In this document: piece by piece, positions 8,700-39,640 of the stretch
Layout of the letters: each line of letters starts with the position of its first letter
Position numbering within the stretch: the first letter of the stretch is position 1
NCBI GenBank assembly: GCA_933228675.1
Contig: OW121741.1
Location: forward strand, 119,457,564-119,521,563
Direction of reading: 5' to 3'
Length of the DNA stretch: 64,000 nucleotides
Source: Stomorhina lunata
Lineage: Eukaryota; Arthropoda; Insecta; Diptera; Rhiniidae
Position numbers and translations under genes: made by a program
The notes under the pieces: generated by a model
The model's database searches: none
Told to the model about the DNA's origin: nothing
What the model saw: the letters and a program-made list of their open reading frames with translations, nothing else

Positions 8700-10795
8700 A
8701 ATTTTGAAAAACTTCTATAAAATTTCCTATAAACATAAGAAATTTTCTTTAAAATTTCCTATAAAAACAGGAACTTTTTGAAACTTTTGAAAAGTTTCCT
8801 ATAAAAATAAGAAATTTTAGAAAATTTTTCTTTAAAAATAAGATATTTTTTAAAAATTTTCTATAAACATAAGAAATTTTTGAAAATTTTTCTATAAAAA
8901 TAAGAAATGAAATTTAAAAAAAAAAGTTTTTTAAAAATTTCCTTTAACAAGGAGAAATTTTTGAAGAAATACCTATAAAAATAAGAAATTTTTAAAAAAT
9001 TTCCTATAAAAATAAGACATTTTTGAAAAATTTTTTATAAAAAAAATAAATTTTTAAAAATTTACTTAAAAAAAATACATTTTTGAAAAATTTCCTATAA
9101 AAATAAGAAATTTTTTAAAAATTTCCTATGAAAATAAGACAATTTTCAACACTTAGATAAAAATAAGATATTTTTGAAAAATTTCCTAAAAAAAATAAGA
9201 AATGTTTAAAAAATTTTTGAAAATTTATCAAAAATTTCCTATAAAAATGAAAAATTTTTGAAAAATTTCCTATTAAAGTAAGAAATTTTTGAAAAATTTT
9301 CTACAAAAATATGAAATTTTTGAAAAATTTTCTACAAAATTAAAAAATTTTTGAAAAATTTTCTATAAAAAATAAATATTTAAAAAAATTCCTACAAAAA
9401 TAAAAAATTTTTGAAAAAAATCCTATTAAAATAAGAATTTTTTGAAAAAATTCCTATAAAAATAAGAAATGTTTGAAAAATTTCCTATAAAAATAAGAAA
9501 ATTTTGAACAATTTCCTATAAAAATAAGAAATTTTTGACAAATTTCCTATAAAAGTAAGAAATCTTTGAAAATTTTCATATAAAAAAGAAATGTTTGAAC
9601 AGTTTCCTTTAAAATTAGAAATTTTTGAAAAATATCCTATAAAAAAAGAAATTTTTAAAAAATTTACTTTAAAAAAATACATTTTTGAAAAATTTCCTAT
9701 AAAAATAAGAAATTTTTGAAAAATTTCTTATGAAAATACGAAAATTTTCAAAACTTAAATTAAAATAAGATATTTTTGAAAAATTTCCTAAAAAAAATAA
9801 GAAATGTTTAAAAAATTTTTGAAAATTTTTAAAAATTTCTATAAAAAATAAATATTTAAAAAAATTCATACAAAAATAAGAAATTTTTTAAAAAAATCCT
9901 AGAGAAATTAGAATTTTTTGAAAAATTTCCTATAAAAATAAGAAATAATTGAAAAATATCTTATAAAAATAATAAATTTTTGACAAATTTTCAAAACAGT
10001 TCCTATAAAAGTAAGAAATCTTTGAAAAATTTCGTATAAAATAGAAATCTTTGAACATTTTCCTTTAAAATTAGAAATTTTTGAAAAATATCCTATACAA
10101 ATAAGAAATTTTTGATAATGTTCGTATAAAATTAAGAAACTTTTAAAAATTTTGTTATAAAAATAAGAAATTTTTGAAAATTTTCGTAAAAATAAATTTT
10201 TTTTTTAAAATTTCCTATAAAAATAAGAATTTTTTGAAAAATTTCCTTTAAAAATAAGAAATTTTTGAAAAATTTTCTATAAAAATAAGAAATTTTTGAA
10301 AAATTTTCTATAAAAATAAGAAATTTTGAAAAATTTCTTATAAAAAAAAAGAAATTTTTGAAAAATTTCCTATAAAAATTAGAAATTTTTGAAAAAAATC
10401 CTATAAAAATAAGACATTTTTTTTTAAATTTCCTATAAAAATAAAACATTTTTTTTAATTTCCTATAAAAATAAGAAATTTTTTAAAAATTTCCTATAAA
10501 AATAAGAAATTTTCCTATAAAGATGCGAATTTTTTGAAAAATTTCCCATAAAAAGTAAGAAATTTTTGAAAAATGTCCTATAAAAATAAGAAACTTTTGA
10601 AAATGTTCCTTTAAATAAATAAATTTTTGAAAAATTTTCCTATTGAAATAAGAAATTTTTGAAACATTTCCTATAAATATAAGAATTATTTAAAAATTTC
10701 CTATAAAAATAAAAAACTTTTGAAAAATTTCCTATATAAATTAAAAATTTTTTAAAAATTTCCTATAAAAATAAGGAACTTTTGAAAAAATTATA
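8700..10795. repeat. 31-bp satellite array, orientation F, filling the last beat intron
   Basis: About 2.1 kb of degenerate units with the words AAATTTTTGAAAAATTTCC and TATAAAAATAAG on the plus strand (called orientation F here). It occupies almost the whole 2173-bp intron between exons at 10811 and 8637, running to about 15 bp from the 5' splice site. Copies vary in length from about 28 to 33 bp. Minus-strand Phe/Lys/Ile-rich open frames here are repeat artefacts. Confidence 0.93.
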
Positions 10796-10810
10796 AAATA
10801 TCTAACTTAC

Positions 10811-11076
10811 CTTCAATTTCATATCACCATTACGAAAATGATGTTGTTCGACACGAAACTGTAAACCCAGGACTGATGTCTCCAGACCTTCACGGCCCGA
10901 TATAACTGTGTCATATTTTCTGAGTGTATGGGGCTCGGCTGCTTCGCCATTTACGAACCATGACAACTGGACGGCAGGTTTTGATCGTCCAGCGGTGCAG
11001 TTGATACGTACCCAATCACCAATTTGATAACGTGGACGACCACCACTGATCTTAGGAGGCCCTTGATCGGGAAGTG
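10811..11076 (-). CDS. beat-family gene, exon encoding most of the second Ig domain
   Basis: The exon is flanked by acceptor TTTTTAG|CACTTCCC (11077/11076) and donor AAATTGAAG|GTAAGT (10811/10810). With the T carried from the previous exon it reads SLPDQGPPKISGGRPRYQ and continues through RINCTAGRSKPAVQLSWFVNG to DMKLK. The Cys in INCTAG and the Trp in LSWFVNG are the Ig-fold core residues. The partner Cys is the first codon of the next exon, which supports the splice. Length is 266 nt, entering in phase 1 and leaving in phase 0. The PRYQIGDWVRINCTAGRSKPA-type wording is characteristic of the Drosophila Beat family, as I recall it. Which beat paralogue this is cannot be settled without alignment. 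Confidence 0.9.
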
Positions 11077-11754
11077 CTAAAAATAGAATAACGAAAATGG
11101 TAAAACCGAAATACAATATAAATTTTTTATTTGTTTTAATATCTTTTTAAGCCACTTGATATTTTATGTAAAAGTTTTGATGTTTTTATTTTAAAGCTTT
11201 GCATACATATTCAAAATTTGTAATATTTGTTCGATTGCAAACAAAGTTTGTTTAGGTATTAACTAAAGCCATCGATGGAACAAAATTTACTTCATATATC
11301 AACACTTCAAATTTAAATAGATTTTTCTATACAGATTCGTAATTGCTTTTGGTCTGATTGATTTACAAAGACAAGTTTTGAAATGGTTTACGGTGAGTAA
11401 ACAATTTTTATATGTAAAACTCTTTAGCTTTGGCAAAAGCCCTGTAGGAACTAAATGCAAGTGAAATTCTGTTGTTTCGTCTTCTAAATAAATCTGCTTT
11501 AGCTTTTTCGAACCAGATCTAAATTTCACGATCTGGTTCGAAAAAGCTAAACCAAATTACATGCGGTCTTTTAAAGAATAAATTTTCTATATTTTTGTTA
11601 AAAAATTTCTATTCATTGCTAAAATTTTCAACTGGTGATTCATTTTTTTTTTTTGTTAAAAGTAAAAAAGTAAATAGACCATTTACACCTGTTAGGAACT
11701 ATTATCAATATATTAAACAGTACAAAATTTTACTATTTTTAAAGAACTTTTTTT
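11077..11754. other. Intronic sequence with hairpin, otherwise featureless
   Basis: This is the start of the 4050-bp intron between beat exons, read along the plus strand. Apart from the inverted repeat at 11498-11551 no gene, RNA or mobile element is recognised. Confidence 0.5.
11498..11551. repeat. Perfect 22-bp inverted repeat (hairpin) in beat intron
   Basis: TTTAGCTTTTTCGAACCAGA (plus TC) at 11498-11519 is exactly reverse-complementary to 11530-11551, with a 10-nt loop (11520-11529). The stem is not composed of the surrounding satellite words and has a mixed base composition, so it is unlikely to be chance. It could be a foldback-element remnant, a cruciform, or a short RNA stem in the intron. 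The stem is too short for a typical animal pre-miRNA hairpin. Confidence 0.9.
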
Positions 11755-14375
11755 TTAAAAATTTCTTTTTATAGGAAATTTTTCAAAAGTTATCTTTACA
11801 GGCAATCTTTCAAAAATTTTAAATTTTTATAGGAAATTTTAAAAATTTTTTTTTTTACCTGAAAAATTTCAAAAATTTCTTATTTTTATAAAAAATTTTC
11901 AAAAAATTCTTTTTGATAGAATTTTTTCAAATTTTTCTTCTTTTTTGAAAAATTTCTTATTTTTATAAAAAATTTTTCAAAAATTTTATATTTTTATAGA
12001 AATTTCCAATTTTTATAGCAAAATTTTAAAAAATTTCTTATTTTTATAGAACATTTTTAAAAAATTTCTAATTTTTATAGGAAATTTTTTAAAAATGCCT
12101 TATTTTATTGCAAATTTTTCAAAAACTTATTATTTTTTATAGAAAATTTTTCAAAATTTTTATATTTTTATATGAAGTTTTTCAAAAACTGCTTATTTCT
12201 TTTTTAACTCAGAAAAATTTCAAAAGTTTCTTATTTTGGAAATTTTTCAAAAATTTTTTATTTTTATAGGAATTTTTTTAAAAATTTCTTATTTTTACAG
12301 TAAATTTTTCAAAAATTTCATGTTTTTGCAGGAAATTGTTCAAAACTTTCTTATTTTTATAGGAAATTTTTAAAAAATTTCTTATTTTTATAGGAAATTT
12401 TTCAAAAATTTCTTATTTTTATAGGAAATTTTTCAAAAATTTCTTATTTTTATAGGAAATTTTTCAAAAATTTCTTATTTTTATAGAAAATTTTTCAAAA
12501 ATTTCTTTTTTTTATAGGAAATTTTTCAAAAATTTCTTATTTTTATAGGAAATTTTTCAAAAATTTCTTATTTTTGTAGGAAATTTTTCAAAAATTTCTT
12601 ATTTTTATAGGAAATTTTTCAAAAATTTCTTATTTTTGTAGGAAATTTTTCAAAAATTTCTTATTTTTATAGGAAATTTTTCAAAAATTTCTTATTTTTA
12701 TAGGAAATTTTTCAAAAATTTCTTATTTTTATAGGAAATTTTTCAAAAATTTCTTATTTTTATAGGAAATTTTTTAAAAATTTCTTATTTTTATAGGAAA
12801 TTTTTCAAAAATTTCTTATTTTTATAGGAAATTTTTCAAAAATTTCTTATTTTTATAGGAAATTTTTCAAAAATTTCTTATTTTTATAGGAAATTTTTCA
12901 AAAATTTCTTATTTTTATAGGAAGTTTTTAAAAAATTTCTTATTTTTATAGGAAATTTTTCAAAAATTTCTTATTTTTATAGGAAATTTTTCAAAAATTT
13001 CTTATTTTTATAGGAAATTTTTCAAAAATTTCTTATTTTTATAGGAAATTTTTCAAAAATTTCTTATTTTTATAGGAAATTTTTCAAAAATTTCTTATCT
13101 TTATAGGAAATTTTTCAAAAATTTCTTTTTTTTAGAGGAAATTTTTCAAAAATTTCTTATTTTTATAGGAAATTTTTCAAAAATTTCTTATTTTTATAGG
13201 AAATTTTTCAAAAATTTCTTATTTTTATAGGAAATTTTTCAAAAATTTCTTATTTTTATAGGAAATTTTTCAAAAATTTCTTAGTTTTATAGGAAATTTT
13301 TCTAAAATTTCTTATTTTTATAGGAAATTTTTCTAAAATTTCTTATTTTTATAGGAAAATTTTCAAAAAGTTCTCAATTTTACATAACATTTTTAAAAAA
13401 TTTCTTTAATTTTTTTTTTCTATTTCTATTGGACATTTTTGAAAATTTCTTATTTTTTTTTAGGAAATTTTCAAAGACTTCTCATTTAAAAAAAAAATAT
13501 GCAAAAATTTTGTTTTATAAAAAATTTTTCAAAGTTTCTCATTTTTATAGAAAATTTTTAAAAAACTTCATTTTTTTAAAAATTTCTTATTTTTATTGAA
13601 AACTTAAATTTTTTTTTATTTTTATAGGAACATTTTTCAAAATATCTTATTTTTATAGAAAATTTTTCAAATATTTCTTATTTTTATAGAAAATTTTTTA
13701 AAAATGTTTTATATTTATAGGAAATTTTTCAAAAATTTCTTATTTTTATGGGAAATTTTTCAGAAATTTCTTATTGTATAGAAAATTTTTAAAAAATTCT
13801 TATTTTTTTAGGAATTTTTAAAAAATTCTTATATTTTAGGAATTTTTTTTAAAAATTCTTATTTTTTTTATGAAATTTTCCAATATATTTTTTTTATTTT
13901 ATAGGAAATTTTTCAAAAAATTTTTGTTTTATTAGAAATTTTTCAAAAATTTCTTATTTTATCATATTTTTTTTAAATTTCTTATTTTTTAGAAAATTTT
14001 TCAAAAATTTCTTTTTTTTTTGAATAAATTTCTGATTATTGTAGAAAATTTTTCAAAAAAATTTTATTTTATTAGAAATTTTTCAAAAATTTCTTATTTT
14101 ATCAGAAATTTTTTTAAAATTTCTTATTTTATAGAAAATTTTTCAAAAATTTCTTTTTTTTGAAGAAATTTCATATTATTGTAGGAAATTTTTCAAAATT
14201 TTTTTATCTTTATTATGTTTAAAAAATTTCTTATTTAATATGATCTTATTTATATAAAAATTTTTTCAAAAATTAATTTTTTTTCGAAATTTTTCAGAAA
14301 TATTTTATTTGTTAGGAAATTTTTAGAAAATACGAAATTTAATAGAAATAGAAAAATTTCCTTTTCCGTAAAAAG
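11755..14375. repeat. 31-bp satellite array, orientation R, with homogenised core
   Basis: This array is built from the same 31-bp unit as at 8700-10795 but in reverse orientation (AAATTTTTCAAAAATTT then CTTATTTTTATAGG). Units at about 12340-13330 are nearly identical, with dozens of copies in exact 31-bp register. Both flanks decay into divergent copies of irregular length. That is the pattern expected when unequal exchange or slippage homogenises the centre. It lies in the intron between beat exons 11076 and 15127. Confidence 0.95.
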
Positions 14376-15126
14376 TTTTTTATTATTTTTTTACCCTGTA
14401 CTGTTTTCAAAAACAATAATCCCCCGAATTTTTTGACTAAAATTCACTTTGACACAAACGAATTTACCCAACTTTTTAGTTTTATTACATTTTCATTTTG
14501 CTTCACTTTTTTTTTTTTTTTTTGTTCTATTTTGGCCAACAAACTTTGTAAAATAGACAGACGTTAGTGCTAAACTAATAAAACCCTAGAAAAAATAAAA
14601 TGAAAATCCTTAAAAAGTTTTAGACCAAAAAAATAACAAACATTTGTTCAATGCAGTTTTTTTTTCAGTTTATACACAAATGAATAGATTTTTCAGGCTG
14701 TGGAGCATTTAAGTTTTTTTTTCGTGAACAATATGTGATGCATTAACAATTATTAAAACTGGCAAAATTTTTAACAAATTGTGTACTCTAGTTGGAGCCC
14801 GAGTCTACTCTATGCGCTTGAAAGTTTGTATTGGATTAAATCTAAAAATTGTATTTTTAACAATTTTGTTTTTCAGTAAAATTTGAGTTTTATAAAATTT
14901 TCATAAAAACTCAGTTTTTTATAGTTTATAGCTCTTTTCCCGTCAGTGTTCATTCAGCTGACACCCAATAAATATCAATCAAATTTAGTTTGGATTTATG
15001 TTTGAATATGAATTTTTCCTTTTTTCATCTTAATTTTACTTCACAGCTAAACAATTTGTTGTTATTTTTGTTTTTCTGTGTAGTTTTTAAATTTAATAAA
15101 ATGTAACAGAAATTGTCAATACTTAC
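14376..15126. other. Intronic sequence without recognised feature
   Basis: Unique-looking AT-rich intron sequence between the R array and the next beat exon. It contains the 5' splice site GTAAGT (15126-15121, minus strand) at its right edge. No gene or repeat is recognised. Confidence 0.5.
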
Positions 15127-15262
15127 ATACAACCACCATGTCACCGTGTTCGGTAACAGTTTGAAATGATGGCGCTTCACCCGATACTTCACAACGAAAA
15201 CGCCCAGCAGATTGTAAATTGACTTCACGTAACGTTACAATGGCATCACTTGAATTATGAAC
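15127..15262 (-). CDS. beat-family gene, exon completing the first Ig domain
   Basis: The acceptor is GAATTTTTAG|GTTCATAATTC (15263/15262) and the donor is GGTTGTAT|GTAAGT (15127/15126). The 136-nt exon enters in phase 0 and ends with one nucleotide of a split codon. It reads VHNSSDAIVTLREVNLQSAG, then RFRCEVSGEAPSF, then QTVTEHGDMVVV. The RFRCEVSG Cys pairs with the Cys in the preceding exon (QLECLYD) and the preceding LQSAG resembles the Ig Y/F-x-C strand region. NSS is a potential N-glycosylation site. A longer minus-strand open frame overlaps here in another frame and is not the real product. Confidence 0.9.
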
Positions 15263-15479
15263 CTAAAAATTCAAAGAAAATAGAAAAAGGGGTTTAAATA
15301 AATATGGCAAAAAATAAAATGGATTTGCAATTTTTTTGTCGTTTCAATAATTTATGAGTTATTTATGGAAAATTGTTTCGAAACCAGGAGTTAGAGTGGG
15401 TTTTATAAAGTGCGTTGAAGAATATTTTAAAATGGTTTGGGGTGAATAAAATTAAAAAAAGCGACTTATAAAAACTAGA

Positions 15480-18345
15480 CATTTTTTAAAATCTTAAAAA
15501 AACCAAAGGTTTTTTTTAAATGTTCTATAAAAACTAGAAAGTTTTTAAAATTTTTCTATAAAAATAAGCAATTTAAAAAAAATCCTTTCAAAATAACAAA
15601 TTTTTAAAAAATTTCATATAAAAATTTGAAATTTTTGAAAAATTTTTGAGAAATTTTTTTAAATACTTCCTATAAAAAATAGATATTTTGGAAAAATTTG
15701 CTATTAAAATAAGAAGTTTTTGAAAAATTTTCTATAAAAATAAAAAAATTTTTGAAAAATTAAAATAAGAATTTATTGAGAACTTTCTCCTAAAAATAAA
15801 AACTATTTAAATTTTTTTTTTATAAAAATAAGACATTTTTGAAAAATCCCAATAAAATAAGAAATTTTTGAAAAAATTTCTATAAAAATAAGAAATTTTT
15901 GAAAAATTTCCTAAGAACAAGAGATTTTTGGAAAATTCCCTTATAAATAAGAAACTAAAAAAAGATTTCTTATAAAAAAATATCTTTTGACAAATTTTTT
16001 ATCAAAATAAGAAATTTTTGAAAAATTTCTATAAAAGAGAAATTTTTGAAAATTTTCTAATAAAATTAAGAAAATTTTCAAACTTTCTACAAAAATAAGA
16101 AATTTTTCAAAAATTTTTTATTAAAATAAGAAATTTTCTATAAAAATAAGAAATTTCAACAAAGTTTCCTATAAAAATAAGAAACTTTTGAAAATGTTCC
16201 TAAAAAATAAGAAATTTTTGAAAAATTTCCAATAAAAATAAAAAAATTTAAAAATTTTTTTTTATAAAAATAAGAAATTTTCGAAAAATTTACTCTAAAA
16301 ATAAGGAATTTTAAAAAGTTTCCTATAAAAATAAGAAAACTTAAAAACTTTCTTTAAAAATAAGAAATTTTTGAAAAGTTTCCTATAAAAATAAGAAATT
16401 TTTGAAAAATTTCTTCACAAATTAAGAAAATTTTGAAAAATTTGCTTTACATATAAGGAATTTTTGAAAAATTTCCTGTAAAAATAAGAAATTTTTGAAA
16501 AATTTCCTGTAAAAAAAATAATTTTTTAATAATTTCTTGTAAAAATATGGACATGTTTTAAAAATTTCCTATAAAAATACTTTCGTATTTCTTATAAAAA
16601 TTATAAATTTTTAAAAATTTTCTATAAAAATAAACTTTTTTTGAAATATTTCCTATAAGAATAAAAAAAACGGAAATTTTTTTGTAAAAATAAGAAATTT
16701 TTAAAAAATTTCTTATAAAAATAAGAAATTTTTTAAAAATTTGCTATAAAGAAAGGAAATTTTTGAAAAAAAAATCCTTTAAATATAAGAAATTTTTGAA
16801 AAAATTCCTATTGAAATAAGAAAATTTAAAATTTTTTCTATAATAATCAGAAATTTTTGAATAATTTCCTTTAAAATAAGAAAGTTTTGAAGAATTTCTT
16901 ATAAAAATTAGAAATTTTTAAAAAATTTCCTATGAAAAAAAAGATGTTTGAAAAAGTACTTATAAAAATATTGAAAAAGTACCTATAAAAATACAATAAA
17001 AATAAAAAATTTTGGAAAAAAAGAAATTCTTGAAAAATTTCCTACAAAAATAATAAATTTTTAAAAAATAAATAAAAAATAAGAATTTTTTTTTAAATTT
17101 CCTATAAAATAAAAAATTTTTAAAAATTTTCTCCAAAATTAAGATTTTTTTTCCATTTTCATGGAAAAAAATTTTGGAAAAATTTCCTATAAAAAAAGAA
17201 ATTCTGGAAAAATTTCCTATAAAAATAATAAATCTTTAAAAAATAAATAAATAAATAAAAAGAAATTTTTGAAAAATTTCCTATAAAATATTTTTTTTTT
17301 TTAAATTTTCTCTAAAATTAAGAATTTTTCAAAAATTTCCTATAAAATTAAGATATTTTTGAAAAATTACAAAAAAAAAATGTATCTTTTTAAAAAATTT
17401 CCTATAAAAATTAGAAAATTTTGAAAAATATCTTATACAATTAAAAACCATTTGAAAAATTTTCTATAAAAATATGAAATTTTTTAAAAAATTTTTAAAA
17501 AACTAAGAAAATTTTCTATAAAAATGAAAAATTTTTAAAAGTAGAAAATTTGAAAAAATTCCAATATAAAAATAGAAAATTTTTAAAAAATTTCCTATAG
17601 AATAGGAAATTTTTGAAAAATTTCCTTATAAAAATAAAAAATTTTTGAAAAAATTCCTAAAAAAAATGTGAAATTTTTGAAAAATTTTCGATTAAAATAT
17701 TTTTGAAAATTTTCCTAAAAAATTAAGTAATTTTTGAAAAATTTCATGTAAAAATAAGAAATTTTTTAAAAATTTCCTACAAAAATAGGATATTTTTGAA
17801 AAATTTTGAAAAATAGGAAAGTTTTGAAAAATTTCCTATAAAAATTGGAAATTTTTGAAAAATTTTCATACAAAAATAAAAAAATTTTAAAAAATTTCCT
17901 ATAAAAGTACGAAATTTTTTAAAAATTTCTATTAAATACTATTGACTATTTTTTCATTAAAATAGTAAATTTTTGAGAAATTTCCTATAAAAACTAGAAA
18001 TTTTTGAAAAGTTTCCTATAGAAAAGAAATTTTTGAAAAATTTCCTATTAAAATGTAAGAAACTTTTTGAAAATTTCTATAAAAAATAAGAAATTTTTAA
18101 AAAATTTTCTATGCAATTTTTGAAAACTTACCTAAAAAATGTTATTATAAAAAAAAAAATAGAAAAATTTAGAAATTAAGAAATTTTTGAAAAATTTTCT
18201 AAAACAAATAAGAAATTTTGGAGAAATTACTTCTCAAAATAATAAAATTTTGAAAAATTTGCTTAAAAAATAAGGAATTTTTGAAAAATTTCCTGTAAAA
18301 AAAAGAAATTTTTGAAAAATTTCCTGTAAAAATAGGACACAAAAA
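15480..18345. repeat. 31-bp satellite array, orientation F
   Basis: About 2.9 kb of degenerate units in the same orientation as 8700-10795. Copies are more diverged and interrupted by small deletions and other A/T words. It lies in the 10.7-kb intron between beat exons 15262 and 25952, starting about 220 bp from the exon. Confidence 0.92.
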
Positions 18346-18460: not shown

Positions 18461-18562
18461 TAGTGATGGGATACTATCGATGGTATTATCGATATTATCG
18501 ATGGTTCACCAACTATCGGAAATATCGATAGCTAAATAAACTATCGATTGCGATAGTTAAAA
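18461..18562. promoter_or_regulatory. Left subterminal cluster of TATCGAT motifs in the hAT element
   Basis: About seven TATCG/CGATA words occur within 100 bp of the left end, including TATCGATAT and TATCGATAG. In hAT elements such subterminal repeats commonly bind the transposase. In flies, TATCGATA is also the DREF recognition element, and clusters of CGATA are bound by BEAF-32. Both roles are inference from motif identity. Confidence 0.6.
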
Positions 18563-18705
18563 AAAATAATTGCTCGACAACACTTTTTCTTTTCAATGTA
18601 TGGCAACCTTTTTTAGCTGCTTAATTCGGGACTTCCCAAATAAAATCAACTCTTAATTAAATTATGAATATAAATTTTGTTTGCGGCCCTTATATAAAGT
18701 GAAAA

Positions 18706-20757: not shown

Positions 20758-20765
20758 GTAACTAC

Positions 20766-22854: not shown

Positions 22855-25775
22855 TAATTTTTTAACAAAAATTTTGGAAATTTTTCAAAAATTTCTCAAA
22901 TAGGAAATTTTTCAAAAATTTCATATTTTAAAACAGAAAATTTTTTTAAAGCTCAAGTTTTTTTTTTAATGTTATTTATTTAATAAGAAGTTTTTTAAAA
23001 ATTTGTTATTTTTTTTACAAGAAATTTTTTAAGAATTTCTTACTTTTTTACAGGAAATTTTTTAAAAGTTTCTTATGTTTCAATAAGAAATTTTTTAAAA
23101 ATTTCATATTTTTTCTTTAGAAATTTTTCAAAAATTTCTTATTTTTTAATAGAAAATTTTAAAAAAATTTCTTAGTTTTTGGTAGAAAATTTCTGAAAAA
23201 ATTTCTTATTTTTTAATAGGAAATTTTTCAAAAATTTCTTATATTTTAATAGAAATTTTTTCAAAAAATTTCTAAATTTTTCAAAAATTTCCTATTTTTT
23301 AATAGGAAATTTTTCAAAAATTTCCTATTTTTATATAGGAAATTTTTTAAAAATTTCCTATTTTTAAATAGGAAATTTTTCAATAATTTCCTCTTTTTAA
23401 ATAGGAAATTTTTCAAAAAGTATTTTTTTATAATAAAAAACTTGTCAAAAATTTCCTACTTTTTAATAGGAAATTTTTTAAAAATTTCTTTTTTTTTAAT
23501 AGGAAATTTTTCAAAAATATCTTATTTTTAATTTTTTTCAAACTGTCTTATTTTTTAATAGGAAATTTTTGAAAAATTTTCTATTTTTTAATGGGTAATT
23601 TTTGAAAAATTTCCTATTTTTTAATAGGAAATTTTTGAAAAATTTCCTATTTTTTTATAAGAAATTTTTTCTAAAACTTCCTATTTTTTAACAGAAAATT
23701 TTTCAAAAATTTCTTATTTTTATAGGAAATTTTTCAAAAATTTCTTATTTTTATAGGAAATTTTTCAAAAATTTCTTATTTTTATAGGAAATTTTTCAAA
23801 AATTTCTTATTTTTATAGGAAATTTTTCAAAAATTTCTTATTTTTATAGGAAATTTTTCAAAAATTTCTTATTTTTATAAGATTTTTTTTTTTTAATTTA
23901 ACAAAATTTGTTATTTTTATAGGAAATTTTTGCAAAATTTCTTTTTTTTTTATAGAAAATTTTTCAAAAACTTCATATTTTTATAAGAAAATTTTTTTAA
24001 AATTTCATATTTTATAGGGAATTTTTTTTATTTTTTTTCCTTTTATAGAAAATTTTTCAAAATTTTCTTATTTTTATAGGAATTTTTTTTTTAAATTTCT
24101 TATTTTTATAAGAAACTTTTTAAAAATTTATTAGTTTTACAGGAAATTTTTCAAAATTTTCTTATTATTATAGGAAACTTTTCAAAAATTTCCTATTTTT
24201 AACAGGAAATTTTTCAAAAATTTCGTATTTTTATAGGAAATTTTTCAAAAATTTCTTATTCTTATAAGAAATTTTTCAAAAATTTCTTATTCTTATAAGA
24301 AATTTTTCAAAAATTTCTTATTCTTATAAGAAATTTTTAAAAAATTTCTTATTCTTATAAGAAATTTTTCAAAAATTTCTTATTTTTATAAGAAACTTTT
24401 CAAAAATTTCTTATTTTTACAGGAAATTTTTAAAAAATTTCTTATTTTTATAGCAAACTTTTCAAAAATTTCTTACTTTATAGGAAATTTTTCAAAATTT
24501 TTTTATTTTTATAGAAAATTTTCCAAAAATTTCTTTTTTTTTATAGGAATGTTTTCAAAATTTCTTATTTTTATAGGAAACTTTTCAAAAATTTCTTATT
24601 TTATAGGAAATTTTTCAAAAATGTCTTACATTTTTTTAAATTTAAAATTTTTGTACGATATTTTTTTTAATTTTTCTTTTTGTAAAAAAATTTTCAAAGT
24701 TTCTTATTTTAATAGGAAATTTTTCAAAAATATTTGATTATTTTTTTAATTTTATATTTCTATACGAAATTTTTCTAAAATTTCTTCTTTTTATAGGAAA
24801 TTTTTCGAAAAATTCTTATTTTGATAGGAAATTTTTCAAAAATTTCTTATTATTATAGGATTTTTTTAAAATGTCTCATTTTGATAGGAAATTTCACAAA
24901 AATTACTTATTTGTATAGGATTTCTTATTTTTCTGGGAAAATTTTCAAAATTTTATTAATTGTATAGGAAATTTTTCAAAAATTTATTGTTTTTATATGA
25001 AATTTTTCAAATATTTCTCACTTTTATAAGAAATTTTTGAAAAATTTCCTATTTTTATAAAAATTTGTTGGTAATTTTTTTTTTAAATTTCATGTGTTTA
25101 TAGGAATTTGTTTTAATTTCTTCTTTTTATAGGAAGTTTTAAAAACAATTCTTATTTTATAGGAAATTTTTCAAAATATTCTTATTTTTATGGATAATTT
25201 TTAAAAATTTTTTTATTTTTATAGGAAATTTTTCGAAAATGTCTTATTTCTCTAAAAAAATTTATTGAAGGTTTTTATTTTCATAGAAAATATTTGAAAA
25301 ATTTTTTATTTTTATAGGAATTTTTTCAAAAATGTATTATTATTTTAAAAATTTTTATTATTATTTTCAAAAATTTATTTATTAAATTAAGAAATTTTTC
25401 AAAAAATTTATTATATTTATTTTTGAAAATTTTTTTATTTATATAAAATTTTCGAAAATTTTCCTTTTTTTATTGCAAGTCGTTCAAAAACATGTTATTT
25501 TTATAGGAATTGTTAAAAATTCTAATTGTTACAGGAAATTTTTCAAAAATAGTATTTTTTACAGGAAATTTAAAAAAAAAATTGATATTTTTTAGGAAAA
25601 TTTTTAAAAGAAATTTTTAAAAAATTTCTCAATTTTTTTAAAGAAAAATTTCCAAAAAATTCTTATAATTTTTTTGAATTTTTGAAAAATTTCTGATTTT
25701 TATGAAAGGAAATTTTTTTATTTTTATGGGAAATATTTAATTTTTTTTTATTTTTATATAAAAACTTAGAAATTT
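22855..25775. repeat. 31-bp satellite array, orientation R
   Basis: About 2.9 kb in the same orientation as 11755-14375 (AAATTTTTCAAAAATTT words). Two sub-blocks are homogeneous: 23690-23880 with the TTTTTATAGG variant, and 24230-24400 where the linker becomes CTTATTCTTATAAG. The array ends about 175 bp before the next beat exon. Within the same intron it faces the F array at 15480-18345. Confidence 0.93.
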
Positions 25776-25951: not shown

Positions 25952-26160
25952 ATCAACTGAAACACCTGGTAGGAGAAAGGTCTGTGCTGGCGGCATATCC
26001 CTGGGTACATATCGATAAAATTCATTGCCATCCTTGTACCATTTCACCGAATACAATGCTTCGCCATCCAAATCGTAAAGGCATTCCAATTGTGCTGTTG
26101 AACCCTTAATAACGTAATTTGGTATACGAACTTCGACCAAACGCAGACTCTGAGAAAAAT
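25952..26160 (-). CDS. beat-family gene, exon encoding the start of the first Ig domain
   Basis: The acceptor is TTTACAG|ATTTTTCTCAG (26161/26160) and the donor is TCAGTTGAT|GTAAGT (25952/25951). After a split codon the exon reads FSQSLRLVEVRIPNYVIKG, then STAQLECLYDLDGEALYSV, KWYKDGNEFYRYVPRDMPP and AQTFLLPGVSVD. LEC is the B-strand Cys and KWYKDGNEFYRY is the Ig core Trp region. RVPxYVxxG...LECxYDLEG...YSVKWYKDxxEFYRYxP is the characteristic opening of Drosophila Beat proteins (family knowledge). Length is 209 nt, in at phase 1 and out at phase 0. The N-terminal signal peptide must come from an exon further up (higher coordinates) that I could not identify. Confidence 0.92.
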
Positions 26161-28190: not shown

Positions 28191-28194
28191 AAAA

Positions 28195-30570
28195 AAATAT
28201 GAAAATAATAAATTTGTAAAAAAAATCCTATAAAAATATCCTATAAATTTTTTTAAATTTTTTATATTAATAAGAAATTTTTTTAACTTTCCTATAAAAA
28301 TAATTTTTTCTTTTAATTTCCTATTAAAATAGGGAACTTTTAAAAAATTTCATATAAAAATAAGAAATTTTTGATGAATTTCTAATTAAAATAAGAAATT
28401 TTTGAAAAATTCAATATAAAAATAAAAAAAAATTTTTAGAAATTTCCTATAAAAATAACATTTTTTTTGAAAAATATCCAACAAAAATAAGAAATTTGTA
28501 AAAAAATTTCCTACAAAAATAAGAAATGTTTAAAACGTGATTTTAATAAAAATACGAAATTATTGAAAATTTTCTATAAGGAAAATTTTTAAACAATTTC
28601 CTATAAGAATGATAAATTATCCAAAAGCTTCATATAAAAACAAGAAATCATCAAAAATTTCCTATAAGAAAAGTTTTCCACATAAAAATGAGAAATTTTT
28701 AAACAATTTTTTATATAATAAGAAATTTTTAAAAATTTTCCTATTAAAATAAAGACCTGTAAAACTAAGAAATTTTTAAAAAATTTCCGACAAAAATTAG
28801 GAATTTTTTTAAATTTTCTTATAAAAAATAAATTTTTAAAAAATTTCCTATAAAAATGAGAATTTTTTTTTTAATTTCTTATAGAAATAAGAAATTTTTA
28901 AAAAATTTCTCATAAAAATAAAAAAATATTTAATAATTTTTTATAAACATAAGAAATTTGTAAAAATTTTTCTATAAAACTAAGTAGTTTTTGAAAAATT
29001 TCCTATGAAAATAAGAAATTTTTGGAAAATTTCCAAAAAAAAAATTTAGAATTTTTGAATAAGAATTTTTTTTAAATTTCCTATTAAAAAAAAAAGAAAA
29101 TTGAAAAATTTGCTATAAAAATGATTAATATAAATATTTCTTTTATAATTTTTTCTAAAACATTTAATATAACAAATATTCAAAAATTTCCTATAAAATA
29201 AAAAATTTGCGAAAAATTTCCTATAAAAATAAGAAATTTTTAAAAATTTTCCTATAAAAAAATTAAAAAAACTACTATTAAAATCAATTTTCCTATAAAA
29301 ATTAAGACATTTGAAAAATTTCCTATAACAAAAACAAATTTTTAAAAATTTCCTAAAAATATAAATAATAAATTTCCATTAAAACTAAGAAATTTTTGAA
29401 AAATTTCCCATAAAAATAAGAAAATTTTATAAAAATTCTAATAAAAATAAAAAAAAATTATTTTACAATTTCCTATTAGAATAATTATATTTGAATAATT
29501 TCCTATAAAAAAAAACATTTTAAAACAAATTCCTAAGAATTTATGACATTTTTGAAAAATTTCCTATAAAATTAAGAATCTTTTAAAAAATTTCAATAAA
29601 ACTATGAAATTTTATGAAAAATTTACTATGAAATTAAGAAATTTTTAAAAAAATGTTCTTTAAAGATAAAAAATTTCTTAACAATTTCCTAAAACAATAA
29701 TAAACTTTCCTATAAAAATAGAAAAATTTTTGAAAAATTTCTTATAAAAATAAAAAATGTTTAAAAAATATCCTATAAACATAAGAAATTTTTGAAAAAA
29801 TTCCTATAAAAATATGACATTTTTGAAAAATTTCCTAAAAAAAGGAGGTTTTTGAAAATTTTCTTATAAAAATAAGTAATTTTTGAAAAATTTCCTATAA
29901 AAATAAGAAATTTTTTAAAAATTTTCTATACAAATAAGAAATTTTTGGAAAATTTCATATAAAAATAAGAAATTTTTGAAAAAATTTAATATAAATATAA
30001 GAAATTTTTGATAAATTTCCTTTAGAAATAAGATATTTTTTCAAAAACTTCCCATAAAAATAAGATTTTTTTAAAAAACTTTTATAAAAATTAGAAATTT
30101 TTGAAAAATTTAATATGAAGATAAAAAATTTTTGATAAATTTCCTATAAAAATAAGATTTCTTTTCAAAAATTTCCCATAAAAATAAGTTTTAAAAAATT
30201 TTCTTATAAAAATAAGAAATTTTTGAAAAATGATATAAAAAATTTTCGATTCATATAAAATATTTTTCAAAATTAAGAAATTTTTTTTATAAAATTAAGA
30301 AATTTTTAAAATTTTACTATAAAATTAAGTTTTTTTTAATATCCTATAAAAATGAAACAAATTTTTAAACTTTCCTGTAAAAATTAGAAATTTTTGAAAA
30401 ATTTTCTTAAAAAAAATTTTTGAAAAAATTTGTATAAAAATAAGAAATTTTTGAAAATTTTGTATAAAAATAATAAATTATTGAAAATTTTTCTATAAAA
30501 ATATGAAATTTTGAAAAATTTCATATAAAAATAAGAAAGTTTTAAAAAATTTCCTATTAAGTTAAGAAAT
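28195..30570. repeat. 31-bp satellite array, orientation F
   Basis: About 2.4 kb of degenerate units with CCTATAAAAATAAGAAATTT and TTGAAAAATT words, same orientation as 8700 and 15480. It lies on the far side of the beat exon at 25952-26160 from the R array. Indels are frequent and no homogenised core is seen. Confidence 0.92.
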
Positions 30571-30584
30571 CAAAAATTTAATAA

Positions 30585-31019
30585 AATTTCCCTTATTTTG
30601 CAATTTTTTTTAGTTTTTCCAAACTTTTTCAAAATTTGGAAATTGATCTTAAATTATTGATATTTGAAATTTTACTCAAATTTTTAAATTTTATAGAGAT
30701 ACAGTTAATTCTTAAAGCTTATTACATTTTATTCAAAATTCTTGAATTTAATCAAAAATCTAAAGTTTTAATGATTTTCTAAATTGTATAATATGTTTGT
30801 AAAATTTCGAAATTTTACGAAATTTTCTTAAGAATTATCATTTCACTGAATTTCCTTAATTTTATAAAATTTTCTTAATATTCCTAAATTTTGTTTATAT
30901 TTGTAAATTTTGCTAAGATTTGTAACTTGTACTTGGCTTTCCAAAATTTCACTAAAATTTGTAATTTAGCTATTGCGAAATACATAGAATTTTTTAAACT
31001 TCTTAAATTTAACAATTTT
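30585..31019. repeat. Degenerate AT minisatellite (left part), interrupted by DINE-1
   Basis: Sequence built on AAATTTTAC / AATTCTTAAATTTTA-like words with roughly 16-18-bp spacing. The same words continue right of the DINE-1 insertion at 31795-32110, so the element appears to have landed within this array. Confidence 0.6.
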
Positions 31020-33459: not shown

Positions 33460-33539
33460 CCATACCACCAGAAGCCGAACACTTTTTGTAATTTTCGTAA
33501 ATATGACGATCATTAATGAAACTCGTGAAAATGAGTATT
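33460..33539 (+). repeat. 80-bp inverted repeat, left arm
   Basis: Starts CCATACCACCAGAAGCCGA and ends GTGAAAATGAGTATT. It is the reverse complement of 37375-37454 with about five mismatches over 80 bp. Together the two arms bracket 3.8 kb that holds two oppositely oriented CTATAG satellite blocks. It may be the terminus of a foldback-like element. Confidence 0.9.
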
Positions 33540-33589
33540 ATAATCATTTAGTTGCGATTTGGATGATAGAAAACTATTTAAGGTAAAAA

Positions 33590-35290
33590 TATTTTTCTAT
33601 AGAAATATTTTCTATAAAAATATTTTTCTCTGGAAAACTTTTCGTTAAAAATAATTTTTTATAAAAAAATTTTCGATAAAAAAAATTTTGCTATACAAAA
33701 ACTCGATATTTTTCGATAAGAATTTTTTTGTATAAAAAAATGTTTGTATAAAAATTTTTTTCTATAACAGAAAGTTTCGAAAGAAATATTTTTGTATAGA
33801 AAAATTTTCGATAAAAAAATTTTTCCAAAGAAAAATATTCGATAAAAAAATTTTTCCAAAGAAAAATATTTGATAAAAAAATCTTTCTAAAAGAAAACTT
33901 TCGATAAAAAATCTTTCTAAAACAAAATTTTTTTTCTATAGAAAAATTTTTGATAGAAATATTTTCAATAAAAAAATTTCTACAGAAAAATGTTCGATAG
34001 AAATATTTTTCTATAGAAAAATTTTCGATAAAAAAATTTTTCTATAGAAAAATTTTCGATAAAAAAATTTTTCTATAGAAAAATTTTCGATAAAAAAATT
34101 TTTCTATAGAAAAATTTTCGATAAAAAAATTTTTCTATAGAAAAATTTTCGATAAAAAAATTTTTCTATAGAAAAATTTTCAATAAAAAAATTTTTCCAT
34201 AGAAAAATTTTCGATTAACAAATTTTTCTATAGAAAAATTTTCGATAAAATAATTTTTCTATAGAAAAATTTTCGATAAAATAATTTTTCTATAGAAAAA
34301 TTTTCGATAAAAAATTTTTTTTAAAAAAATTTTTTGCTGTAGAAAAATTTTCGATAGAAATATTTTGCTATAGATAAATTTTTCGATAGAAATATTATAC
34401 TTTAAACTGAAACTGCTGGGTATTTATTTACGTGTAAAATTTCTATAGAAAAATTTTCGATAAAAAAATTTTTCTATAGAAAAATTTTCGATAAAAAAAT
34501 TTTTCTATAGAAAAATTTTCGATAAAAAAATTTTTCTATAGAAAAATTTTCAATAAAAAAATTTTTCTATAGAAAAATTTTCGATAAAAAAATGTTTCTA
34601 TAGAAAAATTTTCGATAAAAAAATGTTTCTATAGAAAAATTTTCGATAAAAAAATGTTTCTATAGAAAAATTTTCGATAAAAAAATGTTTCTATAGAAAA
34701 ATTTTCGATAAAAAAATGTTTCTATAGAAAAATTTTCGATAAAAAAATGTTTCTATAGAAAAATTTTCGATAAAAAAATTTATCTATAGAAAAATTTTCG
34801 ATAAAAAAATTTTTCTATAGAAATATTTTCGATAAAAAATTTTTCTATAGAAAAATTTTCGATAAAAAAATTTTTCTATAGAAAAATTTTCGATAGAAAA
34901 AATTTTGGTTAAACAAATTTTTCTAGTTTTAAATTTTTCTATAGAAAAATTTTCAATAAAAAATTGTTCTATAAAAAAATTTTCGATAAAAGATTTTTCT
35001 ATAGAAAAATTTTCGATAAAAAAATTTTACTATAGAAAAATTTTCGATAACAAAATTTTTCTATAGAAAAATTTTCGATAAAAAAATTTTTCTATAGAAA
35101 AATTTTCGATAAAAAAATTTTTCTATAGAAAAATTTTCGATAAAAAAATTTTTCTATAGAAAAATTTTCGATAAAAAAAAGTTTTCCATAAAAAAAATTT
35201 TCTATAGAAAAATTTTCGATAAAAAAATTTTTTTAAAGACAAATTTTCGATAGAAATATTTTGCTATAGATAAATTTTTCGATAGAAATA
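33590..35290. repeat. CTATAG satellite array, 31-bp unit
   Basis: Units are in exact 31-bp register over long stretches and consist of TTTTTCTATAGAAAAA (a perfect 16-bp palindrome) followed by TTTTCGATAAAAAAA. Variant ATGTTTCTATAG blocks of six units (about 34580-34760) show local amplification. A non-satellite tail (TTTAAACTGAAACTGCTGGG) occurs twice, at about 34402 and 35299, marking a segmental duplication of roughly 0.9 kb. Confidence 0.95.
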
Positions 35291-36340
35291 TTATACTTTA
35301 AACTGAAACTGCTGGGTATTTAATTGCGTGTAAAATTCAGTATGTAGGTAAAATCGTATGTATATATACTAGCAGATTCTGTTGATTACCATGACTATAT
35401 TGTGTACTGGTTCTGATTATGTTGAACATTCTTTAGTGAATGAAATGGGTAAGTAGTTAAATCCAACTAAAACTTAATTTTATACCTAAGCACACGCATC
35501 TAAAAGTCATAGAGATTTGTAGATATTATATGTAAAACCCTGGGTGTAGAATTTGACTTAAGTGCATTTAAAAAAAAAAATAACCTTGAAAGCTTTGAAA
35601 ACCCTGTTGTATCGCATAGTCAAAATTTAAGATTTTCTTCAAGATCTCTTTTAGTTTAAAAGTTATAATAATTAAAACCTAGTAATTTTATATAAAAATT
35701 CTACTACTATTTTATACTTTTCAAAATCTATAAAAATTATTAGGGATATTTCACAGGCTAAACGTCGCTATGAATGTATTGTTTGTGTTCTTGTTTTATT
35801 AAGTAGCAACATTTATATGCAACTAAATTTGTTCCAGGATAAGAGTTTACATATAACATATGTATTTGTATTTACACAGATATTTGTTTTAAATACATAC
35901 ATATATATGTATTGTATGTATGTAATTTTGTCTAATGATACTAATATCATGTACATGTCATTGACAAGATTATTATTTGCATAATATTGACCAATAAATG
36001 TTATAAAATTCTTTGTCTGTATGTGTTGACCATAAAGAAAGTGTACGTGTATTTATTTACACAAAACGTAAATGTATAAGAGTATTCATTATTATACTTC
36101 TGTATTAAAGGGCTGCTTAAAATTACTTGGAAATTCAAGTGTATTTGAGGTTATGAATGAATTTTACACTAAATGTTCTAAATTAAAGGGTTTAGGTGAT
36201 GACACATATGTATAAATTGTGTAGTGATGAAACTAGAAAAAAAGTTGCAAACCAATTTTCTCTACAGAAAATGCACTTAAATATTTCTTTCAAAACCTGA
36301 AAAATAAGTCTCTGATTTCTTAATGTTTTCAGAAGATAGA
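35291..36340. other. Spacer between two satellite blocks
   Basis: AT-rich unique-looking sequence with short TATGTATG-type runs near 35890-35925. No gene or RNA is recognised. Confidence 0.5.
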
Positions 36341-36344
36341 ATAG

Positions 36345-36820
36345 TTTTTATCGAAATTTTTTCTATAGAAAATTTTTTATCAAAAATTTTTCGATGGAAA
36401 ATTTTTTATCAAAAATTTTCTATAGAAAATTTTCTATCAAAAATTTTTCTATAGAAAATTTTTTATCAAAAATTTTTCTATAGAAAATTTTTTATCAAAA
36501 ATTTTTCTATAGAAAATTTTTTATCAAAAATTTTTCTATAGAAATTTTTTTATCAAAAATGTTTCTATAGAAATTTTTTTTTATCAAAAACTAGAGAATT
36601 TTGCTATCAAAAAATTGTCTACAGAAAATTATTTCTATTCAAAATTTTTCTACAGAAAAATATTTGTATCGAAAATTTTTCTATAGGAAAATATTTTCAT
36701 CGAAAATTTTTCATTAAAAAAATTTTTATTAAAAATTTTTCAATAGAAAATTTTTTGGTAGAAAAATATTTTTTTGGAAAAATTATTTTTCACAAAAAAA
36801 TATTTTTTTTATCAAAAATG
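36345..36820. repeat. CTATAG satellite block, inverted relative to 33590-35290
   Basis: Units of about 29-30 bp with TTTTTCTATAGAAAATTTTT followed by TATCAAAAA. The TATC rather than GATA linker shows that the block runs opposite to the one at 33590. It decays rightward into irregular copies. Confidence 0.85.
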
Positions 36821-37102
36821 TGGGAAGTGAAGGAAGATGAAAACTGAAAATTGTTTGTGTTTTGTTCAGTCGATGATCTACGCTTTTACTTATGGTTTAT
36901 GAACATAATTCTGAAAGGTTTTGTTTGTAAATTAAGTAATATTGCGAGGTTTTCGATCTGTCTAAATTGGGGATAATCCTTCTGAAGAGACGGTCTAACC
37001 AACCATGGTTTCTCCGCAAACAATTTTTGGCTTTTTAGCAATAAATTGGTCTGTTACATTAATAAATAAATGTAACAGATTTGGGATCAAATGCGAATAG
37101 TC
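36820..37102 (-). repeat. Dispersed repeat X, left copy
   Basis: The sequence from TGGGAAGTGAAGGAAGATGA to CAAATGCGAATA is the reverse complement of 46378-46681, with scattered substitutions and a small indel. It contains the palindrome CTGTTACATT / AATGTAACAG around an AAT-rich loop. It is flanked on one side by CTATAG satellite, as is the other copy. The family is not recognised. Confidence 0.8.
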
Positions 37103-37374
37103 ATTATTTAAAAAAAAAAAATTTTATTAAAAATGTTTGTATCGAAAATATCTAAAAATCTAAAATTGTTTAATATCATTATTTATTTCTGCTTCGGAAA
37201 ATGTTTTCAATTTGGTTATATTTATTTCATTTTTCGTGACCTCTCGAACCATGTGTTTTGTTGCTAAAAATTGGATTTTAAATTTTGTTACTTGTATATT
37301 TTGTTTTTGTATTTTCTTTAACAAAGGGGCGCCAACCGACTTTGCTTACATCCCAGTCCTAACTTAATTCTTTT
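37103..37374. other. AT-rich spacer
   Basis: Sequence between repeat X and the right arm of the 80-bp inverted repeat. It includes a GC-richer GGGGCGCCAACCGAC word near 37327. No gene is recognised. Confidence 0.4.
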
Positions 37375-37454
37375 AATACTCATTTTCACGAGTTTCATTA
37401 ATGATCGTGATATTTACGGAAATTACAAGAAGTCATCGGCTTCTGGTGGTATGG
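37375..37454 (-). repeat. 80-bp inverted repeat, right arm
   Basis: Reverse complement of 33460-33539 (about 75 of 80 positions). Similarity may extend weakly outward (AGGCRTA words on both outer flanks). No clear target-site duplication was found outside the arms. Confidence 0.9.
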
Positions 37455-37865: not shown

Positions 37866-37869
37866 CAAA

Positions 37870-38345
37870 CTATTTTTATAGGAAATTTTTTAAAAATTTA
37901 CTATTTTTATAGGAAATTTTTTAAAAATTTACTATTTTTATAGGAAATTTTTTAAAATTTTATTATTTTTATAGGAATTTTTCTAAAAATTTACTATTTT
38001 TATAGGAAATTTGTTAAAAATTTACTATTTTTATAGGAAATTTTTTAAAAATTTACATTTTTTATAGGAAATTTTTTAAAAATTTACTATTTTTATAGGA
38101 AATTTTTTAAAAATTTACTATTTTTATAGGAAATTTTTTTAAAATTTACTATTTTTATAGGAAATGTCTTAAAAATTTACTATTTTTATAGGAAATTTTT
38201 TAAAAATTTACTATTTTTATAGGAAATTTTTTAAAAATTTACTATTTTTATAGGAAATTTTTTAAAAATTTACTATTTTTATAGGAAAATTTTTAAAAAT
38301 TTACTATTTTTATAGGATTTTTTTAAAAATTTATTATTTTTATAT
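37870..38345. repeat. 31-bp satellite array, orientation R (ACTATT variant)
   Basis: About 15 highly regular 31-bp units with TATAGGAAATTTTTTAAAAA and TTTACTATTTTT. They differ from the main R unit by TTAAAAA for TCAAAAA and by ACTA for CTTA. High uniformity suggests a young expansion of a variant unit. Confidence 0.93.
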
Positions 38346-39104
38346 ATATAGTTTATGGGGTTTAAAGTCCATCGAAGAAATTTTGTAAGGATATGTTTAT
38401 TGGAAATTGTGTATAAAATTTTTTTTTAAATTTTAAAATGTTTACAATAACAAAAATTATTTAACTGATTGAAGAAAGAGAGATTTTAGAGAAAATAAGT
38501 GAATTATAAAGTGCAGGCAAAAAACAAGTAAAAGTTATTTAAATAGGCCATAGCAACTTTAAAAAATCCATAAAAAATTTCGAAAAATTATATAAAAACA
38601 ACTAATTTCAACCAAATTTCGATTTCTAAACAATTAAGCATATTCATTATGTATAAGAAAACTATTTTTCGCATTTGAAAAATAGTTTTGAAAAAAATAT
38701 TTTTCGACCGATTTAATAAGAATATGAAAATATACTTTTAAAATATATCAAAATGGGTCTTAAACGAAAGATATTTTCATAAAAGTGTCAAAAATATTAT
38801 AAACCTCAAAAACGTGGTGAACATTTTTTATAAAATTGTCATTTTTTTAAAAGAACTCGGATTTTTAAAAACTTTTTAAGTGAAAACAATTTTCTATATC
38901 ATAAAAGAAAAATTTGTAGCACTAAATAAAAGAATTATACAAAATAAATGACTTTTTCCAATAAAAAAGGAAATTTTTTAGAAATTTATTTTACAACCGA
39001 TTTAATAAGAATAGGTACAATGTATAGCAAAAGGGATCTTAAGTGAAATATATTTTCATAGAGAAGCCAAATAAGACATACATTTTTCAAAATATAGTAT
39101 AGTA
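38346..39104. other. AT-rich spacer between two R blocks
   Basis: No gene recognised. It contains two short similar passages (TTTAATAAGAATA near 38711 and 39001), suggesting an internal duplication. Confidence 0.4.
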
Positions 39105-39640
39105 AATTTTTAAAAAATTTACTATTTTTATGGGAAATTTTTTAAAAATTTACTATTTTTATAGGAAATTTTTTAAAAATTTACTATTTTTATAGGAAAT
39201 TTTTTAAAAATATACAATTTTTATAGGATTTTTTTTTAAAAATTTACTATTTTCACAGGAAATTTTTTGAAAACTTAATAGTTTTATAGGTTTTTTGTTT
39301 TAATTTATTTTTTTTTTATAGAAAATTTTTTAAAAATATACTATTTTTATATAAAATTTTTCAAAATTTTGCTATTTTTATATGAGTTTTACAAAAATAT
39401 ACTATTTTTATATAATTTTTTTTTATTGAAAATTTTTGAAAAATTTACTATATTTATATGAAATTTTTTAAACATTTGCTATTTTTATATGAAATTTTCT
39501 ATTTTTATAGAAAATTTTTCAAAATTTTACTATCTGTTTTAGGATTTTTTTTAATTTACTATAAAAAAAAATTTTCAAAAATTTGTTATTTTTATAACAA
39601 ATTTTTCAAAAATTTACCTACTACCGTTATAAGAATTTTT
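39105..39640. repeat. 31-bp satellite array, orientation R, decaying
   Basis: It starts with four near-perfect ACTATT-variant units identical to those at 37870 and then degenerates to the right. The open frame at 39458-39802 is mostly this repeat read through and is not a gene. Confidence 0.88.

Follow-up and report, generated by a model that had tools for sequence, protein, structure and literature searches.

Circular RNAs (circRNAs) of fly neurons have flanking AU-rich reverse complementary matches that are bound by ELAV (PMC12404201), and a 105-bp intronic match was crucial for circScro(2) (PMC12060249). Long inverted repeats within one transcript are also found at the MLE-bound hairpins and the hairpin RNA (hpRNA) loci of Drosophila that give small interfering RNAs, and MLE is located at hairpin transcripts where these are made (PMC4710571). 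Foldback elements such as FB, Galileo and Tetris are likewise internally repetitive and inverted; the ends of Galileo are internally repetitive (PMC3573991), and Tetris, a foldback transposon, seeded satellite arrays (PMC4079207). In Tribolium, dispersed euchromatic satellites form short-unit tandem arrays that are scattered genome-wide, also in introns (PMC5844308). Here we describe a 64,000-nt stretch of the genome of the fly Stomorhina lunata (the window), in which seven arrays of one 31-bp satellite occupy introns and surroundings of the gene beat-IIIc, three of whose exons stand between arrays of opposite orientation. We consider it likely that a dispersed satellite, oriented by chance, has created unusually large intronic complementary sequences at this locus. 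In the literature searched we found no paper on beaten path satellites in dipteran introns, on circular RNA of beat-IIIc or on 31-bp foldback units.

Like the Drosophila introns known from circRNAs of circScro, laccase2 and Glut1, the introns of beat-IIIc carry AU-rich complements that flank an exon and are capable of forming a hairpin (PMC12404201, PMC12060249), and in silico we found complements in the introns that precede and follow an internal exon as well as a predicted pairing that beats local folding. Unlike the 105-bp match of circScro(2), the beat-IIIc complements are arrays of kilobase length with many registers and competing partners. The arms also differ from those of hpRNA loci in being intronic and in diverging at 21-27% of positions, and from foldback elements in that the arrays have no convincing common termini and that exons lie between the would-be arms. 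As expected of a dispersed satellite, one consensus is shared by arrays B1-B5 (Table 1) and by 10 of the 11 arrays tested (out of 16) outside the window, and genome matches are listed on five contigs (C1, C2, C7, C10 and C11; 40 of 2538 first-look candidates were scored). Unlike the Tribolium-type satellites, it combines a 31-bp unit and a 19-bp near-palindromic core with switches of orientation within arrays. The beat-IIIc arrays are an intronic complementary sequence of a known kind, here supplied by a dispersed satellite.

The arrays were delimited by wraparound alignment to a circular 31-bp profile on both strands, with 400 Markov-resampled controls as the null. Scan windows within the blocks scored 70-248, whereas the controls had their 99th percentile at 46 and did not exceed 64; outside the blocks there were three isolated windows at a score of 70-71, and the 31-bp period was found independently by Tandem Repeats Finder. 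The scan recovered, at ~8.70-39.65 kb, the single 31-bp satellite with the block coordinates and orientations that a first-pass annotation of the window had reported. The consensus GAAATTTTTGAAAAATTTCCTATAAAAATAA is identical in B1-B5, the full units of which have a mean identity of 0.86-0.91 to it, and the consensus of B6a and B6b departs from it at G1T, G10A and A31G. As read from the consensus, the unit consists of a 19-bp near-palindrome (GAAATTTTT-G-AAAAATTTC) and a 12-bp polar part, so that orientation is defined mainly by the latter. A polar 13-mer of the unit, allowing up to two mismatches, served as the orientation marker and had the expected orientation in 246 of its 247 matches across the seven arrays (forward/reverse: B1 42/0, B2 0/51, B3 47/0, B4 0/40, B5 46/0, B6a 0/15 and B6b 1/5). 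The blocks are thus pure in orientation; mixed orientation inside them had been named by the first-pass annotation as a finding that would speak against its reading. Its description of six strictly alternating blocks stood for the first five, which do alternate, but the sixth consists of two R arrays. The ~0.75-kb spacer between these contains no scanned window at threshold and is similar to the 0.94-kb gap between B1 and B2, so on equal terms the series reads F R F R F R R (F, forward and R, reverse on the plus strand).

Two observations concern individual arrays. A direct repeat (38686-38724 and 38975-39013, 85% over 39 bp) lies inside the B6a-B6b spacer, and B2 has a near-perfect core (12339-13330) and decayed edges, a pattern as from unequal exchange, with 21 exact units among its 78 full units. 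An exact 38-mer of the satellite had no matches in prokaryotic contigs and none in viral contigs, as expected for such collections. The heptamer TTTTTTT, chosen here as a candidate ELAV motif, occurs at 11.0-11.5 per kb in B1, B3 and B5 and at 0-6.3 per kb in the A-rich arrays and five array-free stretches.

Table 1 Satellite arrays and beat-IIIc exons in the window, with orientation (arrays, on the plus strand) or coding strand (exons)
Feature	Position	Orientation/strand	Description
Array B1	8695..10790	F	U-rich in transcript
Array B2	11735..14384	R	A-rich in transcript
Array B3	15467..18338	F	U-rich in transcript
Array B4	22860..25765	R	A-rich in transcript
Array B5	28215..30585	F	U-rich in transcript
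Array B6a	37870..38345	R	Subfamily with three diagnostic changes
Array B6b	39120..39650	R	B6a subfamily; ~0.75 kb from B6a
beat-IIIc exon E1	25952..26160	-	209 nt, between B5 and B4
beat-IIIc exon E2	15127..15262	-	136 nt, between B3 and B2
beat-IIIc exon E3	10811..11076	-	266 nt, between B2 and B1
beat-IIIc last coding exon	7858..8637	-	Downstream of B1

The gene between the arrays is fly beat-IIIc. Its exons were supported by tblastn, have GT/AG splice sites and a checked reading frame, follow one another in order and in frame, and show ortholog-level similarity across the Ig region. The three internal beat exons proposed earlier are genuine; the proposal is to be amended in that the gene lies on the minus strand and has a fourth exon, starting at 8637. 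Joined together, the four exons match Beaten path Vc (E 5e-31) and Vb (E 2e-30) in PDB and, among the best 120 of 729 matches, fly proteins at up to 94% (D. obscura LOC111077886), a D. tropicalis protein named beat-IIIc reaching 93%. A hydrophobic-frame scan of the window gave no candidate for the signal-peptide exon, which is short and maybe too diverged, and tblastn with fly proteins gave none in 264 kb.

In transcript order the elements are B6b, B6a, B5, E1, B4, B3, E2, B2, E3, B1 and the last exon. The intron at 8638-10810 is 96% satellite, with B1 filling 2096 of its 2173 bp and leaving 57 and 20 bp. Short introns are common in flies, and these 57 + 20 bp would equal one, suggesting that B1 expanded inside a short intron. 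Singly, the lengths of E1, E2 and E3 are not multiples of three; those of E1+E2 (345 nt) and E2+E3 (402 nt) are.

Opposite neighbours could be aligned antiparallel over 2.2-2.9 kb, which bears out the earlier statement that neighbouring blocks are complementary over kilobases, but this complementarity is imperfect, with 73-79% identity and longest perfect runs of 37-53 nt (B1-B2: 2156 columns, 79%, 53 nt; B2-B3: 2485 columns, 76%, 37 nt; B3-B4: 2925 columns, 73%, 46 nt; B4-B5: 2485 columns, 73%, 38 nt). The same-orientation pairs among B1, B3 and B5 aligned antiparallel over 699-1940 columns at 64-66%, which is permitted by the near-palindromic core, and the pair B2-B4 over 1429 columns at 71%. 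The predicted fold of B2-E3-B1 (sense RNA) has an energy of -1830.7 kcal/mol vs -1437.2 kcal/mol with B2 flipped, and that of B3-E2-B2 has -1853.8 vs -1544.5 kcal/mol with one block flipped. The flip of a block costs 309-394 kcal/mol in these predictions, and the bases of the first block that pair across the exon drop from 1512 to 0 (E3) and from 1734 to 140 (E2). Excerpt folds across E1 (B5-B4) yielded -98.7 vs -8.4 kcal/mol.

All 21 array pairs were folded as excerpts of at most 700 nt, with shuffled-partner and flipped controls. The 12 opposite pairs gained 45-230 kcal/mol, compared with 0.4-15 kcal/mol for the nine same-orientation pairs and 0-14 kcal/mol for shuffled partners, and flipping the partner swapped the two classes. 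Competing partners, as had been suggested for the block at 11.8-14.4 kb, appear in a predicted fold of 9.7 kb from B3 to B1, where B2 divides its bases between B1 (1155) and B3 (902) and B3 pairs with itself over 1212 bases. Paired positions in this fold include 11 of 13 and 9 of 13 at the E2 splice sites and 12 of 13 at the 5′ site of E3, the 3′ site of which is barely paired (4 of 13). The in silico evidence supports the prediction that opposite neighbouring arrays are able to form long duplexes looping out single exons.

The first-pass annotation had regarded the alternation as unexpected for random insertion of a satellite. For seven arrays with fair and independent orientations, the probability of at least five switches out of six is 7/64. 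As control we used the same satellite outside the window, in the fly's own genome (728 Mb, 104 contigs), reading 200 contiguous kb, one blind 50-kb stretch, two 10-kb stretches and seven 3.2-kb loci, one of which falls within another stretch read. On the left, 100 kb past the 3′ end of the beat-IIIc coding region carry arrays ordered F F R R F F F R F, and the order on the right is F R F R F F F over 100 kb; the two 10-kb stretches had F F and F R, and the blind 50 kb on contig C7 contained no array. Opposite neighbours made up 8 of 14 outside the window (4/8 in one flank and 4/6 in the other), or 5 of 11 when three arrays of <400 bp were left out. When the 23 arrays were shuffled at random, 27% of the orders contained a run of at least five alternations. 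Given these mixed orientations and this frequency, a non-random order is unsupported, and strict alternation was rejected as a signal on the basis of the 264-kb control. Opposite arrays outside the window have an antiparallel identity of 75-78%, equal to that of the arrays bracketing the beat exons. In the small sample covered here, beat-IIIc and its surroundings cannot be told apart by the arrangement of their arrays. The bracketing of each exon by an opposite pair, also noted before, is seen but follows from the alternation and provides no independent evidence. The second 31-bp satellite of the window, TAAAAAAATTTTTCTATAGAAAAATTTTCGA, which occurs in plus orientation at 1-1.1 and 33.6-35.3 kb and in minus orientation at 36.3-36.8 kb, was dropped as an orientation control; many windows beyond 45 kb cannot be oriented.

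How arrays of opposite orientation arise may be read in part from arrays that change orientation internally. Sustained switches were found at four places (~-47.85, -21.75 and -19.95 kb relative to the start of the window, and locus L004:791-864), which are 4 of the 10 rows in the switch list; the other six are single stray motifs. At -19.95 kb, 32 nt separate the final reverse motif from the forward one that follows, exactly in phase with the palindromic core, and the forward part afterwards measures only ~185 bp. The other spacings (40, 70 and 73 nt) fit the core less exactly. These observations suggest the core or short T-runs as the sites of template switching or of inversion. Such switching cannot account for B1/B2 and B2/B3, since an exon lies between the arrays of each pair, and independent seeding is needed there. 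We also asked whether blocks are inverted copies of one another or co-evolving arms and found nothing convincing: 31-mers with at least two deviations from the consensus are shared in two events over the 10 pairs of B1-B5, and net divergence between these blocks is 0.0001-0.0041, which argues that the blocks are not inverted copies. For shared 24-mers with at least two deviations there were 36 events in the 10 pairs, with the highest numbers in B2-B3 (9) and B2-B4 (6), which are not F...R pairs.

Several observations weigh against chance orientation and against duplexes that matter in the cell. Six strictly alternating blocks taken alone have a probability of 2/64 under fair, independent orientations. 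Over 264 kb, 14 of 22 neighbours are opposite (one-sided P 0.14), and a second run of five alternations extends over 39-155 kb, although it spans a gap of ~106 kb; opposite pairs may therefore be in weak excess, and the orientation control rests on a small sample of the regions in the 728-Mb genome. The pairs B1-B2 (P 0.43) and B3-B4 (P 0.11) are inseparable, as inverted pairs would be, whereas the other 8 of the 10 pairs of B1-B5 are distinguishable (P 0.037 or less). In a block bootstrap, these two pairs ranked lowest together in only 52 of 500 replicates, compared with a chance expectation of 1/45. We take their closeness as a weak hint of an origin as inverted pairs, not as support for it. 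Concerning the pairing, intra-intron pairs such as B4-B3 compete with the exon-spanning ones in the excerpt folds (-108 kcal/mol for B4-B3 and -76 kcal/mol for B6a-B5, a putative intra-intron pair) and would favour linear splicing over circles, and minimum free energy folds ignore kinetics, proteins and helicases. Furthermore, PMC12404201 cites studies that oppose a systematic role of complementary matches.

The strongest competitor, which we regard as possible but doubtful, holds that the arrays have no effect in cells because local folding of each unit on its near-palindromic core, protein coating of the U-rich strand and early splicing or unwinding prevent long duplexes. It is compatible with chance orientation and contradicts only the pairing. 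With one block flipped, 1450-1956 bases per block still pair internally, B3 self-pairs in the 9.7-kb fold, and the recruitment of MLE to hairpin transcripts at the site of synthesis (PMC4710571) fits as well, but the predicted energy favours long duplexes by hundreds of kcal/mol and far shorter matches function in flies. A selected device, in which the alternation is maintained because beat exons are circularised, edited or skipped under the control of the duplexes, would be in keeping with three exons each standing between opposite arrays, the strongly predicted pairing across E3 and E2, the precedents in flies and the opposite arrays that bracket the in-frame combinations E1+E2 (B5/B2) and E2+E3 (B4/B1). 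The ordinary order in the neighbourhood and the equal complementarity among opposite arrays outside the gene make it quite unlikely, and the units of B1 and B2 are no closer than within-block divergence predicts, which gives no sign of covariation of the arms. An elaborate version, to which we assign very little weight, would have mutually exclusive kilobase duplexes (B2 with B1 or B3; B4 with B5 or B3) form an orientation-coded satellite circuit, in which ELAV or an RNA helicase might select, in neurons, a single exon or E1+E2 / E2+E3 for circularisation or skipping, while the palindromic core might let circuits arise and rewire through in-place changes of orientation.

The FB element of D. 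melanogaster carries repeats of 31 bp within its inverted repeats. F...R pairs of arrays could be the repetitive terminal inverted repeats of foldback-type transposons, which would make them opposite automatically. Foldback-like elements with internally repetitive inverted ends can seed satellites (PMC4079207), the least distinguishable pairs, B1-B2 and B3-B4, are both F...R, and the other 31-bp satellite has a foldback-like layout at 33.46-37.45 kb. This origin is nevertheless quite unlikely: exons lie between B1/B2 and B2/B3, so more than element sequence stands between the arms, isolated arrays and same-orientation neighbours are common, and the two pairs lead in only a minority of the bootstraps given above. 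A shared-end test of 500-bp borders (42 same-side comparisons vs the null maximum) revealed no convincing common ends, with four borderline scores (B1-B2 5′ side 38 v 40, B3-B5 5′ side 31 v 31, B1-B4 3′ side 33 v 28 and B1-B6b 3′ side 36 v 33), and shared transposon ends at the array borders were set aside as a candidate.

We think it very improbable that the arrays act through sequence signals instead of pairing, with the U-rich arrays offering acceptor-like or protein-binding sites and the A-rich arrays polyadenylation-like signals. In the U-rich arrays the unit reads TTTCTTATTTTTATAG/G, an acceptor-like string, and sites of this type (YAG with at least 11 pyrimidines of 13) number 23 in B1, 18 in B3 and 8 in B5, compared with none in the A-rich arrays and 4 in 10.8 kb of five array-free stretches; the four real beat-IIIc acceptors reach 9-10 on the same pyrimidine score. 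In the sense strand, the A-rich arrays B2, B4, B6a and B6b contain 11, 19, 2 and 2 copies of AATAAA, while among the U-rich arrays B3 has 2 copies and B1 and B5 have 0. The acceptor-like and AATAAA figures are string counts and no evidence of use, however; orientation is equally mixed outside the gene, and U-rich B1 begins 20 bp from a donor, which is incompatible with a simple positional rule. Assembly artefacts such as folded-back reads are known to arise at inverted repeats, but this explanation is nearly refuted here: a folded-back read would produce near identity, whereas opposite neighbours have an identity of only 73-79% and hardly any private variants in common, and the intervening exons are in order and in frame.

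The window contains other repetitive elements. Between B3 and B4, at 18461-20757, there is an apparently complete hAT transposon on the plus strand with a 598-aa frame, a BED finger and a hAT dimerisation domain; its ends are similar and inverted, and it is flanked by a perfect 8-bp repeat, GTAACTAC. The stretch 33460-37454 has a foldback-like layout, in which two inverted arrays of the second 31-bp satellite (33584-35292 and 36336-36790) lie within inverted repeats of 94-106 bp (88-90%), and the segment 36813-37109 is repeated in inverted orientation at 46371-46685 (88%). Open frames of simple repeats on both strands at 46780-48250 (ISIS..., NTDTNTD...) indicate a short-period repeat. On the plus strand, 3′ of the beat-IIIc coding sequence, a reverse transcriptase frame (RVT_1, E 7e-30) extends over 4809-6266, with a stop ending at 5930.

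Our preferred explanation is that a single dispersed satellite, AT-rich and with a unit of 31 bp, spread into the introns of beat-IIIc and the DNA around the gene, the orientation of each array probably being set by chance or by within-array switching, maybe aided by the 19-bp near-palindromic core; its neutral placement, the duplexes in cells and the mechanism of switching are what we infer. Incidentally, where neighbouring introns carry arrays of opposite orientation, these amount to intronic complementary sequences of very large size. Within the nascent RNA, U-rich B5, B3 and B1 could pair with A-rich B6, B4 and B2 across E1, E2 and E3, or alternatively arrays of the same intron could pair. 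Judging from the cases known in flies, slower linear splicing and some back-splicing, chiefly of E3 and E2, would be expected, perhaps more strongly in neurons given the binding of ELAV to AU-rich complementary matches there. By analogy, effects on circRNA formation, editing or skipping of beat-IIIc are plausible.

If the pairing occurs in cells, beat-IIIc would be an extreme natural test of whether back-splicing in flies is driven by the length of complementary introns, a value that rests on the 2.17-kb intron consisting of satellite at 96%, on the three exons between opposite arrays and on arrays that choose between partners. If it does not, this fly would tolerate kilobases of possible intronic duplex together with dozens of acceptor-like decoys. 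Since satellites switch orientation even within arrays, an inverted layout around an exon should be called functional only after comparison with a null drawn from its neighbourhood or from the whole genome.

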